49,994 nucleotides of DNA from Methanosarcinaceae archaeon (GTDB lineage: Archaea > Halobacteriota > Methanosarcinia > Methanosarcinales > Methanosarcinaceae). The stretch lies in assembly GCA_030611265.1 (NCBI GenBank), contig JAUWQD010000017.1, positions 1 through 49,994 on the forward strand, written 5' to 3'. Below, one piece after another: positions 22,079 through 37,739 of the stretch (position 1 is the stretch's first letter; each line of letters begins with the position of its first letter). The notes beneath the pieces were generated by a model, which ran no database searches, was not told the DNA's origin, and worked only from the letters and a program-made list of their open reading frames with translations. The position numbers and the translations under genes are program-made.

Positions 22079-23107
22079 TTAACTAACCCGCACCGCATCC
22101 TCTATCGCCTTTTGCCACGCACCGGCGTCATCAACCTCGATCTCGCGCTTTTGGACATTGTCCCCTGATTCCGAAACAATGAGTTTCGCTTTTTTGAACA
22201 AGCCACCGTTTACAACCCGCGAACCGATGATTCCCTTCACCTTAATTTCCTCTCTCGAATCATCACGCATGTTAATGATCGCCAATCGCTTGTTTGTAAG
22301 TATCAAAAATTGTGCACCTGTTCGTGTCAATCTCAAAAGATGCTCGCCTTTCAAATAATCTGCTCGCAGCCGCCTGAGCAGGTCGAGTACTTTTTCACGG
22401 TTCTTTGGCTGGATTCCAATGATCTCGATATCCTTTGAACCTGTCAGGAGAAAGATGCGTTTTGCTTCGGCGTGCACACCTATGATCTCATTCACCCCGA
22501 TGCGGCGGAATATCTCGGACTTGTTAGACAGCATGCCGCCAGTTCCTTTTTTGAAAAAGATGTTCTTGTTCGTAACAACCATCGCAAGCCTGTTCCTTCC
22601 GATCACAACCGATTCACTTGCAAGCACATTCTCGCCGCTTTTGAGGATTGCCCCATCGATAACAGAATTATTTTTATCCGGCAAGTTTGTGTCACCTGCT
22701 GCGGATGAAACTTGTGACTGCGCATCAGGACAGTAATGGTTCAGCATTTCAACAAGCAAAGCGCCGCCGATGAGTTTCACATTATGCTTTGCAGCCTCCC
22801 CCTCTGCGTCTTTTGTAAAGTCGGAAGTCGTGACAATGATAACCCCATCAACAGTATCGCGGTATCGCAGGCTGCTGTACTCGCGCACTTCTTTCACACC
22901 TACGGCATCAGCGTATCGTTTGACCTGAACAAGCCACCGGTGAGAAAGACCAAAATGCTCAAGCGAAAGTTCAATGTCAATTCCGCCATCGCGGGAATAC
23001 TGGGTAACACTTGCCCCGTAACCCATCTGTTTGAACAGGTACGCTACAAGGTTCTCAAAATCGTCAGGAGTTGTGCTCAAAAGATGGTCGAGCGTCCATT
23101 CGGCCAT
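22079..23107 (-). CDS. Mrr-type restriction endonuclease domain fused to PH-like domains
   Basis: 342 residues from ATG 23107, which follows the TGA of the upstream gene by 1 nt and has GAGGAC before it; a TTG five codons earlier is less likely. Residues 1-120 are an Mrr_cat domain: DDFENLVAYLFKQMGYGASV, DGGIDIEL (catalytic D), and WLVQVKRY (QxK). A linker of about 40 residues follows, then two beta-rich repeats of PH/YokE type: NVLASESVVIGRNRLAMVVT and HLLRLTRTGAQFLILTNKRL. Mrr proteins often cut modified DNA, but here the C-terminal PH-like part suggests lipid or protein binding. No methylase is nearby. Confidence 0.75.
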   Translation of the reverse strand: MAEWTLDHLLSTTPDDFENLVAYLFKQMGYGASVTQYSRDGGIDIELSLEHFGLSHRWLVQVKRYADAVGVKEVREYSSLRYRDTVDGVIIVTTSDFTKDAEGEAAKHNVKLIGGALLVEMLNHYCPDAQSQVSSAAGDTNLPDKNNSVIDGAILKSGENVLASESVVIGRNRLAMVVTNKNIFFKKGTGGMLSNKSEIFRRIGVNEIIGVHAEAKRIFLLTGSKDIEIIGIQPKNREKVLDLLRRLRADYLKGEHLLRLTRTGAQFLILTNKRLAIINMRDDSREEIKVKGIIGSRVVNGGLFKKAKLIVSESGDNVQKREIEVDDAGAWQKAIEDAVRVS

Positions 23108-23108
23108 A

Positions 23109-23279
23109 TCAGTCCTCGCCAACCGAGTATGAAAGACCGCATTCCGGGCAAGAATAAGTAATTATGACTGCACCCTTTTTGCTCTTCTCTTTAGTGGTAT
23201 TCATCCATGTGCCGCAGGTTATGCATTTTTGGTCGAATATGGTACGGTCCTTTGTAGATGATTCATTTTTACCTGCCAT
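23109..23279 (-). CDS. Small zinc-ribbon protein
   Basis: 56 residues from ATG 23279, which has AAAGGTG 6 nt upstream and lies about 30 nt after a TATA box. An ATG ten codons further upstream would fall before the expected transcription start. The zinc site is KCITCGTW...YSCPECGLSY (two CxxC knuckles). The rest is short and charged. The function is unknown; it sits directly upstream of the Mrr-PH gene, separated by one base, so the two are co-expressed and perhaps work together. Confidence 0.65.
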   Translation of the reverse strand: MAGKNESSTKDRTIFDQKCITCGTWMNTTKEKSKKGAVIITYSCPECGLSYSVGED

Positions 23280-23308
23280 TTTTACACCTTTCTCTTTCTC
23301 ATTAGACA

Positions 23309-23330
23309 TTTATAAAAATATAATATATAT
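23309..23330 (-). promoter_or_regulatory. TATA-box promoter for the zinc-ribbon/Mrr-PH pair
   Basis: A 22-nt AT-only stretch beginning TTTATAAAAATATAATATAT ends about 30 nt upstream of ATG 23279, in the correct position for box A on the minus strand. Confidence 0.5.
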
Positions 23331-23432: not shown

Positions 23433-23630
23433 ATGGTTGTAAAGATCAACAAAGACAAATGTGACCGGAACCGGATGTGTGTCATTGTTTCAGCATGTCC
23501 CATAGGTGCCATCAAACAAAGAAAGATCGGCCCAATCCTTGCAGATTATCCTGAAATCGATGAAGAAAAATGTACCGAATGCGGAATCTGTATAAAAGAA
23601 TGCCCGCATGATACCGTTTACAAAGAATGA
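23433..23630 (+). CDS. Two-cluster ferredoxin with a variant first cysteine motif
   Basis: 65 residues. The second motif is classic for a [4Fe-4S] cluster: CTECGICIKECP. The first is not C-x2-C-x2-C-x3-C but C10-x5-C16-x5-C22-P (DKCDRNRMCVIVSACPIGAI). The same spacing occurs in the next gene. The two motifs are joined by PILADYPEIDEEKC. A final cysteine after each motif would normally close the other cluster, so cluster I may have an altered ligand or be site-differentiated. It precedes another ferredoxin, thioredoxin and marker 14, all on the plus strand. Confidence 0.85.
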   Translation: MVVKINKDKCDRNRMCVIVSACPIGAIKQRKIGPILADYPEIDEEKCTECGICIKECPHDTVYKE

Positions 23631-23674
23631 TAAAACAATAATTACGAGCCAACTGTGAGAAGAAGCGATAAAAA

Positions 23675-23968
23675 ATGGCAAAGTCAAAAAAATATAAGGT
23701 CGGCAAAAGTGTCAAAGAAGTTGCAAAACTAAAAATAAATCGATGCGACAAATCCCCCCTCTGTCCAGCTAAAAAAGTATGCACTCTAGATGCGATCACA
23801 CAGAAAAAAAGAGGGTTTTTGAACTTGTTTGCAGATTATCCGGAAATTGATCCAAGTAAATGCATGGGATGTGGGGTGTGCGTGGATGCATGCGCCCGTG
23901 GTGCGATCTATATGAAACCGATCGACACGAAAAGCAAAAACAAGAACAAGTCATATAAAAAGAAGTAA
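23675..23968 (+). CDS. Second ferredoxin with the same variant cluster motif
   Basis: 97 residues. The N-terminal 20 residues and the C-terminus (KSKNKNKSYKKK) are strongly basic. The cluster motifs are C-x5-C-x5-C (NRCDKSPLCPAKKVCTLDAI) and C-x2-C-x2-C-x3-C (KCMGCGVCVDACARGAI), joined by NLFADYPEIDPS. The linker and spacing are shared with the gene at 23433, so these are diverged duplicates. The proline normally after the last cysteine is replaced by Ala in the second motif. Basic tails could dock on an acidic partner. Located 44 nt after its twin. Confidence 0.85.
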   Translation: MAKSKKYKVGKSVKEVAKLKINRCDKSPLCPAKKVCTLDAITQKKRGFLNLFADYPEIDPSKCMGCGVCVDACARGAIYMKPIDTKSKNKNKSYKKK

Positions 23969-23995
23969 CATCATTACAAAATAAAGGTGAGTTCA

Positions 23996-24388
23996 ATGGA
24001 CGAATTGGAAGCGATCAGGAAAAAGAAGATGGAGCAAATTATCAGGAAAAAAGAACTTGAATCTTATCCGGATAAACCAATCACTGTTGCGGATGCAGAT
24101 TTCAATCAATTTATATCGAAATATCCATTAGTTGTAGTTGACTGCTGGGCAGAGTGGTGCGGACCATGCCGTATGCTTGCACCGACCATTGATGAGCTTG
24201 CTGCAGAATACAGGGGAAAGATCGTTTTCGGAAAACTCAATACCGACCACAACCGTGCAACTGCAATGCAGTATAAAATATCAAGCATTCCTGCGATGCT
24301 TGTTTTCAAGAACGGGAATTTTGTAGGACAGATAATCGGTGCAGTTCCAAAAGAACAGATCGTGCAGCAACTACAGCCTCTTATGTAA
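23996..24388 (+). CDS. Thioredoxin
   Basis: 130 residues from ATG 23996, with AAAGGTGA 6 nt before; a GTG three codons upstream is less likely. The active site is AEWCGPCRMLAP and the cis-proline block is SSIPAMLVFKNG, both standard for thioredoxin. An extra helical N-terminus of about 35 residues (DELEAIRKKKMEQIIRKKEL) is charged and could bind a partner. It lies 27 nt after the second ferredoxin and 16 nt before marker 14, so it probably serves the same operon. Confidence 0.93.
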   Translation: MDELEAIRKKKMEQIIRKKELESYPDKPITVADADFNQFISKYPLVVVDCWAEWCGPCRMLAPTIDELAAEYRGKIVFGKLNTDHNRATAMQYKISSIPAMLVFKNGNFVGQIIGAVPKEQIVQQLQPLM

Positions 24389-24404
24389 GACGGAAGTGAA
24401 ATAA

Positions 24405-25829
24405 ATGTCAAAACCAAGAATTGCAGATAGCCCAACAATACGTTTGATAGACCTTAAGTCAAAACCATACTTTATTGTCGCATCCGTAGAGGTTGGAAAT
24501 ACCACTACAAAGTGCATCCTGACAGCTACGAACATGGAAGATGGAAAGACAGGTCATGTATATAAAGTTGTGAAGATGACAAGGGATGTGCGCGATCCTT
24601 TACCTGATGAAGCGGTTTTTGGAAGAACATTGAATGGTGTGGGACTTACACGCGAATCAGTATCCGAACTTGTTCGTGATACACTTGTTGAGGCTGTGGA
24701 AAAAGCAAATCTTGACATCAAGACCGATCTGAACTTTGTTGTACGCTCAACAGGAGTGGTTGCAGGTTTTGATATGCCGGAAGAGGTTGGTGAGTTCATC
24801 AAAGCACTGGCGGACGGTTGTCTTATGGCAGGTGTCCCTCCAAAGAACATGACACCTCCAATGTCAATTGACAATCTGCCTGAGAAGTTCCGAAAGTTCA
24901 GTATGATTAAAAAGGTTGTATTTGACGGTGCAGTGGCAAGTGTTATCCCACCAATTGGTGCAACAGGCGTAGAAGTGGTTGCAAATGAAATGGAGGGAGA
25001 ACTTGCAACAGCAGGCATCAAGGAAGGTGCCAAGTGGGCTGATGTTGATTTCAGGAATCCGTGTCTTTCAATAGATTTCGGGACCACGCTTGATGGGCGA
25101 ATCACCAGTGATGACCTGCCTTATGCAAAAACGATCGGTAATTTCTGTGGTTATGCAGGTGCCATTCCCGATGCCATTATCAAGGGCACGCACACGGTCG
25201 ATGTAATTCTCGGAACAGCCCTTGATGTTTTTGATGAAAAATCCGCTGATGTCCTGACACTTAAACTTAAAGGCAAGATGATACGCGAATACGCTAACAA
25301 GATCCTTGATTATGTCATCATAGAAAAAGTTCCAAAAAGCAGTACAAAATATGGAAGCGTGCCTGTAAATCCAAAAGCTGCCGATGAAATGGGAGTTGTC
25401 CTCATTGGCTGCGATGTTGGCGAGAACGGTTCTGACATGGACAAACTGTCTGAAATTGGCGGCGAGATACACAAAAAACATGGACTCAAGATATTGTTTG
25501 CAGTGATTGATGAGGTCATGGCAAAGGTAATTTACCGTCTTGTCAAGGTTGCAAAGGATGAAGGACTTGTGTTTGAAAATTCATCCATCGGCATAACCGG
25601 AAGGGCAGGGATCAGCGGTAACAAGCCAAAACTTGCTTTGAAGTATCTTGGTGATCTCAATATCAACCACAAGATCGATGAGCGTGTGGTTTTCGTGGAT
25701 GACGGACTTGCAAGGGGCGCGGCAGTCATGGCACGTTGCATGAACTCACTCGGCGCACCCAAAAACCCTCTTGGTGGTCGTTCCGGCGGCAAATGTATTT
25801 TGGGAATGAGAGTTAAGTTGCAGGGTTAA
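24405..25829 (+). CDS. Methanogenesis marker protein 14
   Basis: 474 residues. The sequence opens MSKPRIADSPTIRLIDLK and has two ASKHA-like phosphate loops: ASVEVGNTTTKCILTATN near residue 28 and LSIDFGTTLDGRIT near 222. Glycine-rich NPLGGRSGGKCILGMRV ends the protein. This matches the marker 14 family (TIGR03285), found only in methanogens and relatives and lacking a proven function. The ASKHA features resemble ATP-dependent reductive activators of corrinoid enzymes. Two ferredoxins and a thioredoxin directly upstream fit a redox-activation role; that is an inference. Confidence 0.88.
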   Translation: MSKPRIADSPTIRLIDLKSKPYFIVASVEVGNTTTKCILTATNMEDGKTGHVYKVVKMTRDVRDPLPDEAVFGRTLNGVGLTRESVSELVRDTLVEAVEKANLDIKTDLNFVVRSTGVVAGFDMPEEVGEFIKALADGCLMAGVPPKNMTPPMSIDNLPEKFRKFSMIKKVVFDGAVASVIPPIGATGVEVVANEMEGELATAGIKEGAKWADVDFRNPCLSIDFGTTLDGRITSDDLPYAKTIGNFCGYAGAIPDAIIKGTHTVDVILGTALDVFDEKSADVLTLKLKGKMIREYANKILDYVIIEKVPKSSTKYGSVPVNPKAADEMGVVLIGCDVGENGSDMDKLSEIGGEIHKKHGLKILFAVIDEVMAKVIYRLVKVAKDEGLVFENSSIGITGRAGISGNKPKLALKYLGDLNINHKIDERVVFVDDGLARGAAVMARCMNSLGAPKNPLGGRSGGKCILGMRVKLQG

Positions 25830-35687: not shown

Positions 35688-35963
35688 TCAAGCAACATAC
35701 AATGCGCACAGGCATGCACCCCGCTTTGCGATATCCTTGTCGCGCTGTGAGCACGGACAGATTAGTACCTTATCCTTTTCCTTGTCGCCGGTCGTAGGTC
35801 TGCACCCACAATATGGTTCACCCTTCTCACGCTTATTGTTGGCGATAGCCTTGATCGCGGTCACAACAATATCGTAATCGGGATTTAATTTGTATCCACT
35901 TTCCTCTGTATTCTTCTTTGCCGATTCATATATTTCTGTTTCAATGTCGTTTGAAAAATCCAC
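35688..35963 (-). CDS. Ferredoxin-thioredoxin reductase catalytic subunit-like protein
   Basis: 91 residues. Three C-x-C motifs hold the expected order: EPYCGCRP, then VLICPCSQ, then GACLCALY. In plant-type FTR the pattern is CPC-x16-CPC-x8-CHC; here it is CGC-x14-CPC-x12-CLC, so the first proline and the histidine of the last motif are replaced. The four cluster and two redox-active cysteines are nevertheless all present. Methanogen FTR homologues reduce thioredoxin-like proteins using ferredoxin. It lies downstream of FprA on the same strand, 48 nt away, in a cluster for oxygen defence. Confidence 0.8.
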   Translation of the reverse strand: MDFSNDIETEIYESAKKNTEESGYKLNPDYDIVVTAIKAIANNKREKGEPYCGCRPTTGDKEKDKVLICPCSQRDKDIAKRGACLCALYVA

Positions 35964-36011
35964 CTATATCACTCCTTATTTTTGTTGTTTACTGGTTCTA
36001 TACGATAAGCG

Positions 36012-37217
36012 TCATTTCCCCTCTATCACATCTGCGAGCCTGCCACCCATCTCACGGCAATATCTCAAATCGTTCTCATCGGGTCTGAACTTCACCTGCA
36101 AACCGGGTTCAATAATCTCAAACCCTGCGGTCTCCAATTCCTTTTCAACCGCTTTCACAGCCCCGCCACCCCATCCGAATGAACCGAAAGCAATTGCTTT
36201 TTTGCTTTTTGGACGAAGTCCCTTAAGATATGTCAAAAATCCGGCAACTGATGGGAATATACCATTATTGAGCGTAGGTGAGCCAACAGCTATTACCGGT
36301 GCAGTCAGTACCTCTTTTATGATCGCACTCCAGTCATTCTTTCGCAAGTTCAGGAGTTTTACCTCCACACCGGTATCACTTATGCCATCCAACATCGCCT
36401 TTGCCATCCGCTCAGTGCTTTTCCACATCGTGTCATAGATTATCAGAACCTTCGGCACAGTCTCGGCATTTGCCCACCGCCCATAAGCAGCGATTATCTG
36501 TGCAGGATCCTTTCGCCATATCACACCATGACATGGTGCGATCATGTCGATCCCAATACCAAGTTGCTCCACCGTATCTACATACTTGAGTACCTGTGAG
36601 CCGAACGGCATCAGGATATTTGCATAATATTCAGCAGCATCATCCATCACATCATCCACCTCATCATTGAAGCGATGTGACGAAGCAATATGCTGTCCAA
36701 AGGCATCATTTGAAAGGAGTATCTTATCCTCTTTGATGTAAGTGTGCATGCTGTCAGGCCAGTGCAGCATTGTGGCTTCAATGAACATCAAGGTCCTGGC
36801 ACCAAGGTTCAACTCACTACCAGTTTCAACAACCTCAAAATTCCAGTCCTTGCATCCTATACTACTATAATGTTGACATAATCCATCCCTGCCTCGTTTT
36901 GTTGCAATAACCTTAGCATTTGGAATTAGTCTCATAAGTACAGGCAAAGAACCTGAATGATCCATTTCCACATGGTTCGATATTACATAATCAATCCGTG
37001 TAGGATCGATTATTTTTTGGATATGTTTGATCATCTCTCCTGCAAAATGTGATTTCACAGTATCAACAAGTGCGATCTTCTCATCTACGATCAGATAAGC
37101 ATTATATGTAGTCCCTTTTGGCGTCACATAACCATGAAAATCACGGATGTTCCAGTCAACCACTCCTACCCAGTAAACCCCTTTAGCTAATTCTACTGGA
37201 CTATATTCGTTATCCAC
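36012..37217 (-). CDS. fprA: F420H2 oxidase-type flavodiiron protein (FprA)
   Basis: 401 residues. The N-terminal metallo-beta-lactamase domain carries the diiron ligands: SNHVEMDHSGSLP (H82, E84, D86, H87), then MLHWPDSMHT, LLSNDAFGQH and APCHGVIW. The C-terminal flavodoxin domain begins KVLIIYDTMWKSTERMAKAM and has VGSPTLNNGIFPSVA and FGSFGWGGGAVK. In methanogens this enzyme reduces O2 to water using F420H2. The electron donor cannot be read from the sequence. The neighbours (ferritin-like, DUF2892, FTR-like) fit an oxygen-stress operon. Confidence 0.92.
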   Translation of the reverse strand: MDNEYSPVELAKGVYWVGVVDWNIRDFHGYVTPKGTTYNAYLIVDEKIALVDTVKSHFAGEMIKHIQKIIDPTRIDYVISNHVEMDHSGSLPVLMRLIPNAKVIATKRGRDGLCQHYSSIGCKDWNFEVVETGSELNLGARTLMFIEATMLHWPDSMHTYIKEDKILLSNDAFGQHIASSHRFNDEVDDVMDDAAEYYANILMPFGSQVLKYVDTVEQLGIGIDMIAPCHGVIWRKDPAQIIAAYGRWANAETVPKVLIIYDTMWKSTERMAKAMLDGISDTGVEVKLLNLRKNDWSAIIKEVLTAPVIAVGSPTLNNGIFPSVAGFLTYLKGLRPKSKKAIAFGSFGWGGGAVKAVEKELETAGFEIIEPGLQVKFRPDENDLRYCREMGGRLADVIEGK

Positions 37218-37250
37218 ACTCCATTCCTCCCAATATGAACATTGATTAAT

Positions 37251-37739
37251 TTATGTCTGCATTCGAAATTGTGTAGACTCTTCAAGGAACCCATCTATGA
37301 GTTCATAATGCCCCCGTTCAAAAGATGCAAGTTTATCGAAGAACCCGCGCTGCTTTTCATTTTCAGCACGTTTTGAAAGTTCAGTATAGAAATACTCACT
37401 TTTTCGCTCAAGACGGAGCGCTGCCAAAAGCACACCAATCTTTCCCAAACGGTCATCAATGAACTCCATAGAAAATGATGTTTTAAAATCCGGGGCATTG
37501 GATTTGACATCCGGCACCGTTTTGTCCTTTCTATATTGTCTCAGGTAGTCGGCATGCCTGACTTCTTCCCCTGCCAGATAATTGTATAATCCAATCGTTT
37601 CCACACTTTTGATAGTAGATGCCTTTTCAAGATAGAACTCCCTGCCCTGCTCTTCCATAGAAATTGCCATCTCAAGCACATTGTCCAACGTCTCAAGTTC
37701 TTCAAGAGTAACTGATATCTCTTTTAGTACATCACTCAT
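37251..37739 (-). CDS. Ferritin-like/rubrerythrin-type diiron protein without rubredoxin domain
   Basis: 162 residues, four-helix bundle. The metal ligands fit AISMEEQGREFYLE, then LAGEEVRHADYL, ALRLERKSEYFYTEL and LASFERGHYELIDG, i.e. two ExxH-type motifs and the Y/F of rubrerythrins. No CxxC rubredoxin tail. Such proteins remove peroxide or store iron. It lies between DUF2892 and fprA on the minus strand with short gaps (16 and 33 nt), so the operon reads DUF2892-ferritin-like-fprA-FTR. Confidence 0.85.
   Translation of the reverse strand: MSDVLKEISVTLEELETLDNVLEMAISMEEQGREFYLEKASTIKSVETIGLYNYLAGEEVRHADYLRQYRKDKTVPDVKSNAPDFKTSFSMEFIDDRLGKIGVLLAALRLERKSEYFYTELSKRAENEKQRGFFDKLASFERGHYELIDGFLEESTQFRMQT

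Follow-up and report, generated by a model that had tools for sequence, protein, structure and literature searches.

The gene for methanogenesis marker 14 (MM14) tracked the corrinoid methyltransferase Mtr, not Mcr, across the genomes that we analyzed by computation, and its product was predicted to be an ASKHA-fold protein. MM14 thus has the predicted fold, the distribution and the gene neighborhood expected of an Mtr activator. Because its gene follows Mtr through evolution and encodes a putative ATPase fold, MM14 is a candidate for the protein that re-activates Mtr at the expense of ATP. We estimate that the chance of MM14 being an ATP-dependent reductive activator of the Mtr corrinoid, with ferredoxin and thioredoxin as a lineage-specific redox supply, falls a little short of even.

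A four-gene cluster ending in MM14

The DNA that we analyzed (the window, 49,994 nucleotides) makes up one contig in the 2.86 Mb genome of a Methanosarcinaceae archaeon, the genus of which is very probably 'Ca. Methanovorans' (ANME-3). Two ferredoxin genes (Fd1 and Fd2), a thioredoxin gene (Trx) and MM14 are closely spaced on the plus strand, with gaps of 44, 18 and 16 bases (Table 1). The reading frames therefore confirmed the arrangement given in a preliminary description of this DNA, in which Fd1, Fd2 and Trx lie just before MM14. The thioredoxin matched TIGR01068 (4.6e-34), and its orthologues begin at the internal ATG (MDELEAIR). MM14 scored 699 bits against TIGR03285, above the curated cut-off of 274, and 758 bits against DUF2114.

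Table 1. Positions in the window of the four-gene cluster and of other genes mentioned in the text
Feature	Position	Strand	Description
Mrr-type nuclease-domain protein	22079..23122	-	Upstream of cluster
Small zinc-ribbon protein	23109..23309	-	Upstream of cluster
Fd1	23433..23630	+	65-aa ferredoxin; motifs C-D-x4-C-x5-C-P, then C-x2-C-x2-C-x3-C; archaeal, mostly Trx-linked clade
Fd2	23675..23968	+	97-aa member of the Fd1 family, with Lys-rich extensions at both termini; grouped with sequences from Bacillota
Trx	23987..24388	+	Thioredoxin, WCGPC; conserved N-terminal extension MDELEAIRxKK; probable start ATG 23996
MM14	24405..25829	+	Methanogenesis marker 14 (TIGR03285, DUF2114); predicted ASKHA fold; invariant Cys445 and Cys464
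FTR-like catalytic subunit (FeThRed_B)	35688..35963	-	Possible partner of Fd and Trx; outside cluster
FprA-type flavodiiron protein	36012..37217	-	Name assigned by eye
Rubrerythrin-like protein	37251..37739	-	Name assigned by eye

The Mrr-type gene, the zinc-ribbon gene or both also adjoin Trx-MM14 in related Methanosarcinaceae (L062, L063, L066, L215). Farther along the window, the FTR-like, flavodiiron and rubrerythrin-like genes are consecutive (35688-37739) and form an oxygen-defense set, as judged from the names in Table 1.

Co-occurrence of MM14 with Mtr

The co-occurrence of MM14 and MtrE was counted over 197 genomes of the phylum. The two were found together in 113 genomes and were both absent from 70; MtrE occurred without MM14 in two (G273, G291), and MM14 without MtrE in 12. 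Nine of these 12 also lacked McrA. The nine belong to families f12, f18 and f22, are mostly 82-97% complete (one is 63% complete), and all keep MtrA-like and MtrH genes. In the three stretches of such genomes that we read, MM14 was 0.7-2.8 kb from mtrH, and the mtrA-like gene, mtrH and MM14 lay within about 3 kb. McrA without MtrE was detected in eight genomes, six of which lacked MM14 (G255, G259, G337, G360, G367, G394), and MtrH was absent from all five of these six that were tested. The two exceptions with MM14 were G308, in which the gene is a fragment at a contig end and MtrH is missing, and G379, which is 82% complete. Mtr without MM14 in G291 and G273, and the partial MM14 without MtrH in G308, count against MM14 as an Mtr activator.

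In 36 genomes, from four families, MM14 was located at most 13 kb from mtrE. The two genes are divergent neighbors in 23 genomes of f11 and point the same way in f15, f10 and f7; in f15 (L202), MM14 directly follows mtrG-mtrH. This link to corrinoid methyltransferase genes (mtrA/H/G/E) was seen in other families and not in the window.

The loci L201, L204, L211 and L212 (f12, f18, f22) come from archaea with genomes of 0.8-1.6 Mb, and the MtrA-like proteins read there are rich in Lys/Arg over a stretch close to the end. A gene for a MetE-type synthase lies just downstream of MM14 in L204, a layout that possibly reflects methionine synthesis by a corrinoid route. In G257 and G365 (L203, L205) we found a second MM14 paralogue, more divergent, with no Mtr genes among the neighbors read. 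Further, the window's genome encodes a second, divergent MtrE (G000:C27:35731-36585; 352 bits, versus 454 for the first), which possibly belongs to the second complex of Mtr that PMC9012536 mentions in ANME.

A role of MM14 in Mtr function was proposed in 2014, on the grounds that it is found near mtr and is absent, together with Mtr, from Methanomassiliicoccales (Borrel 2014, PMC4153887); the MM14-Mtr link itself has thus been known since then. New here, as far as the papers that we consulted show, are the retention of MM14 with MtrA and MtrH in genomes lacking Mcr and the predicted fold. Our literature search returned no paper on DUF2114 and, for 'methanogenesis marker 14', a single profiling paper of 2011. 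We considered whether 'm26, tied to Mtr' (PMC9635834) is MM14 and did not use it; the accessible main text of that paper does not define m26.

MM14 could instead serve MCR, either in the activation of its Ni-F430 or in the assembly of Fe-S cofactors for it. In the two f11 loci that we read, genes for markers 17 and 7 are directly downstream of MM14 (the marker 7 match is below the curated cut-off), and both markers belong to the ATP-driven complex for MCR activation whose structure has been solved (PMC12176620). Further, a NifB-like gene adjoins MM14 in f10. However, MM14 is retained in the nine genomes without McrA and MtrE and is missing from most McrA genomes without Mtr. Methanomassiliicoccales have MCR but no MM14 (PMC4153887), and the accessible part of PMC12176620 does not list MM14 among the proteins that co-purify with McrC. 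We consider a role in MCR function, in place of Mtr, very improbable.

Predicted structure of MM14

DUF2114 (residues 21-473) was the only domain that Pfam assigned to MM14; no N-terminal [2Fe-2S] domain or other Fe-S domain was detected by Pfam. A search of PDB sequences with MM14 returned nothing meaningful. An AlphaFold2 model (pLDDT 87, pTM 0.90) showed two RNase-H-like halves, as judged from the order of strands and helices. When the model was compared with the PDB using Foldseek, the top matches were ASKHA proteins, with RACo at ranks 3 (3ZYY, 4.6e-7), 11 (RACo:CoFeSP, 4C1N), 14 and 15. The TM-scores against single PDB chains were low (0.3-0.4), as can happen when two-lobed proteins are compared at different closure.

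In an alignment of 23 diverse MM14s, E29-x-GNTTTK, D224-x-GTT and G396/G399-R400 were kept; we assigned these by eye as phosphate and adenosine motifs. C445 and C464 were identical in all 23. Our guess is that the two cysteines either hold a cluster at a subunit interface or make up a disulfide that can be reduced. The predicted structure and the conserved phosphate-loop-like motifs back the ASKHA-like loops reported previously. The accompanying proposal of an ATP-dependent reductive activator was strengthened as well, since it would fit the tight association with Mtr and the presence of RACo among the nearest folds of the model; MtrA is the proposed target. The ASKHA fold by itself cannot tell activators from sugar kinases.

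Gene order upstream of MM14

In 65 of the 105 genomes for which both coordinates were listed, Trx and MM14 share a strand, and Trx lies upstream at a distance of 16-56 bases. These comprised 63 Methanosarcinaceae and two genomes of the distant family f6. Next to MM14, Trx is missing from Methanosarcina-type genomes and most other families: families f2, f3 and f7 have it elsewhere, and the Methanosarcina-type genera g5 and g14 had no close orthologue among the matches listed. Adjacency in 65 genomes indicates that Trx and MM14 form an established local unit, and they are probably co-transcribed across much of Methanosarcinaceae. The ferredoxins beside them are probably a later addition.

The ferredoxin pair preceded Trx-MM14 in the window's genus only, in five of its seven genomes, in one of which it is disrupted. 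Both reading frames are open in G000, G182 and G184, and G187 has the pair, with the Fd1 match beginning at residue 4 near the contig start. In G186 a 67-base deletion in Fd1 removes the entire C-x5-C-x5-C motif, and Fd2 carries a 16-base duplication; since the genomes are metagenome assemblies, single lesions are possibly errors. Upstream of Trx, 824 bases in G183 and 1109 bases in G185 contained no ferredoxin. Thus, absent from two members of the genus and disrupted in a third, the pair is not essential for MM14. We rejected a general ferredoxin-MM14 synteny, the ferredoxins being beside MM14 in this genus alone. The preliminary description had asked whether the gene order is conserved in methanogens and ANME and had staked its proposal on such synteny: Trx-MM14 is conserved across much of Methanosarcinaceae, Methanosarcina-type genomes excepted, and the ferredoxins are not.

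The ferredoxin pair and Trx might also be general redox or oxygen-stress genes that lie upstream of MM14 by chance and have no functional tie to it. This is consistent with the location of Trx orthologues elsewhere in ANME-2 and family f7, with the apparently acquired and labile nature of the ferredoxins and with the FTR-flavodiiron-rubrerythrin set in the same window. However, a Trx-MM14 spacing of 16-56 bases, found in 65 genomes from two distant families and many genera, is unusual for unrelated genes, and on balance a chance arrangement seems unlikely to us.

Features and ancestry of the ferredoxins

The cysteines of Fd1 are arranged as C10-x5-C16-x5-C22, followed by C47-x2-C50-x2-C53-x3-C57, and the pattern of Fd2 is identical. 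Both proteins contain ADYPEID, so the two features that they had been said to share were verified in both sequences. The ferredoxins are 40% identical (E = 1e-12), a likeness beyond chance. ADYPEID is not common to the wider ferredoxin family and varies within the window's genus (ADYPGIY in G182). When 39 relatives were aligned, seven cysteines and one alanine were invariant, and over 90% of the sequences had an aspartate directly after the first cysteine. Seven of the eight cluster cysteines of a 2[4Fe-4S] ferredoxin are present; the one missing is the second of the first motif, where another residue stands. Accordingly, in the classical arrangement no more than three cysteines ligate the first cluster; it may be a [3Fe-4S] cluster, a labile [4Fe-4S] cluster or one with other ligation. 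The structure was predicted to be an ordinary dicluster ferredoxin fold (pLDDT 95), nearest to a domain of the polyferredoxin FwdF (TM 0.82 by query length). In a profile search of the PDB with the ferredoxins, the alignments shown were to polyferredoxins or covered just the common C-x2-C-x2-C half.

The first-cluster spacing had been described as rare. We scanned the genomes of 84,980 species (GTDB set) with an exact DNA pattern for C-D-x2-P-x-C-x5-C-P-x2-A-I, which matched 99 stretches; nearly all of the 80 matches listed contained an in-frame ferredoxin. The matches were mostly in Clostridia, Coriobacteriia and other Actinomycetota, and they also included ANME-2 and the window's genus. The C-x5-C-x5-C spacing is thus not rare and marks a frequent ferredoxin family. 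Within the phylum as sampled, ferredoxin matches above 85 bits were confined to the window's genus and f3 (ANME-2), and the next scores were approximately 50. In family f31 (L195, L196), a C-x5-C-x5-C ferredoxin starts with CPQ, not CD, and has no Trx neighbor.

In a FastTree phylogeny, Fd1 grouped with archaeal, mostly thioredoxin-linked copies (0.86), and Fd2 with those of Thermincola, Carboxydocella and one Clostridiales copy (0.92); the tree is tentative, because the alignment comprises 65 residues. Their placement in different clades suggests that Fd1 and Fd2 are probably not tandem twins and makes the term 'twin', used for them previously, misleading. We tentatively rejected an origin by tandem duplication.

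Ferredoxins of this type and their probable role in thioredoxin reduction

In ANME-2 (f3), a 60-aa copy of the ferredoxin is encoded directly upstream of a thioredoxin and distant from MM14; in the three loci read, it was preceded by a gene for a CoA-disulfide-reductase-like flavoprotein. Contig C25 of the window's genome carries a ferredoxin, a thioredoxin and an FTR catalytic subunit (CPC/CPC/CHC) in a row (L056 2992-10574), flanked by HdrA2 and a FwdF-like polyferredoxin and by a fwdB-containing fwd cluster. The same arrangement is kept in G187 (L052). All three partners thus stand together at G000:C25, and in the window the ferredoxins and Trx are together, with the FTR-like gene about 10 kb away. 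In bacteria most copies stand alone, with no Trx gene next to them; the exceptions were a ferredoxin-thioredoxin fusion protein (L076), a Trx-ferredoxin pair (L127) and a ferredoxin with a Trx frame 127 bases away (L098). In L154 the ferredoxin is fused to a thioredoxin-like tail, as detected by Pfam. This repeated coupling to Trx or FTR makes thioredoxin reduction, from ferredoxin through FTR to thioredoxin, the best-supported role of the C-x5-C-x5-C ferredoxins, as read from gene neighborhoods.

The preliminary description had the electrons of the odd ferredoxins pass to MM14; given the ferredoxin-Trx-FTR operon in the same genome, FTR/Trx is the better-supported acceptor. In a direct route, with no Trx intermediary, the ferredoxins would give low-potential electrons straight to MM14, or pass them to its target with MM14 expending the ATP. 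Their adjacency in five ANME-3 genomes, the predicted ASKHA fold and the need for an external low-potential donor in a protein without its own Fe-S domain point that way. However, no ferredoxin-MM14 linkage was found in other lineages, the ferredoxins are dispensable inside the genus, and at sites distant from MM14 the same type is repeatedly tied to Trx or FTR. We regard the direct route as very unlikely.

A possible mechanism of Mtr activation

Mtr pumps sodium and conserves energy, and the step that it catalyzes is central to both the formation and the oxidation of methane. The cobalt of corrinoid methyltransferases slips from Co(I) to Co(II), after which ATP-driven reductive activation is required; in other corrinoid systems, RACo and RamA are the reductive activators. 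The ATP-dependent activator of Mtr was called uncharacterized in a structure paper of 2025 (PMC12774963).

We infer each step between ATP and cobalt as follows. MM14 may be an ATP-using ASKHA protein that serves Mtr, and most likely it would rescue MtrA after its cobalt has passed from Co(I) to the inactive Co(II). Since MM14 has no Fe-S domain, a separate reductant would be needed. Electrons or thiol reduction could reach MM14 from outside, perhaps via Cys445 and Cys464, and in much of Methanosarcinaceae the source could be the dedicated Trx encoded directly upstream. In ANME-3, the two C-x5-C-x5-C ferredoxins added upstream might feed Trx through an FTR. The complete version of this proposal, in which MM14 as Mtr activator represents a new Fe-S-less ASKHA branch with an external redox chain via the C-terminal cysteine pair, extended in ANME-3 by a laterally acquired bacterial ferredoxin, is in our judgment doubtful.

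If MM14 does activate Mtr, its survival in Mcr-less archaea with MtrA and MtrH would be explained. The marker is nearly universal but unstudied, and since model methanogens allow its deletion or purification, the question of an Mtr activator can be tested directly.

Comparison with known systems

The Fd-FTR-Trx systems of plants (FTR) and of Methanosarcina acetivorans (FDR, cited in PMC6262447) have counterparts in the window's genome, which encodes CxC-motif FTR subunits, one of them beside a ferredoxin and a thioredoxin. In contrast to those systems, the ferredoxins here have the C-x5-C-x5-C spacing, with a residue other than cysteine at the usual second position, and the cluster in the window is without an FTR gene, the nearest being that in Table 1. 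The C-D-x-S-P-x-C-x5-C-P small ferredoxins of Clostridia and Actinomycetota have the same invariant columns and seven cysteines, and it is with Thermincola and Carboxydocella that Fd2 groups; they differ in their mostly solitary genes.

The MCR activation complex (McrC, Mmp3, Mmp7, Mmp17, A2; PMC12176620) likewise combines marker proteins with ATP-driven reductive activation, which for MM14 would be a putative activity. However, the accessible part of that report does not place MM14 in the complex, and MM14 follows Mtr. Unlike RACo (3ZYY/4C1N) and RamA, MM14 has no [2Fe-2S] or [4Fe-4S] domain by Pfam and no detectable sequence similarity to them, and its activity is a presumed one. MM14 resembles both in the ASKHA fold of its model and in its association with a corrinoid methyltransferase system.
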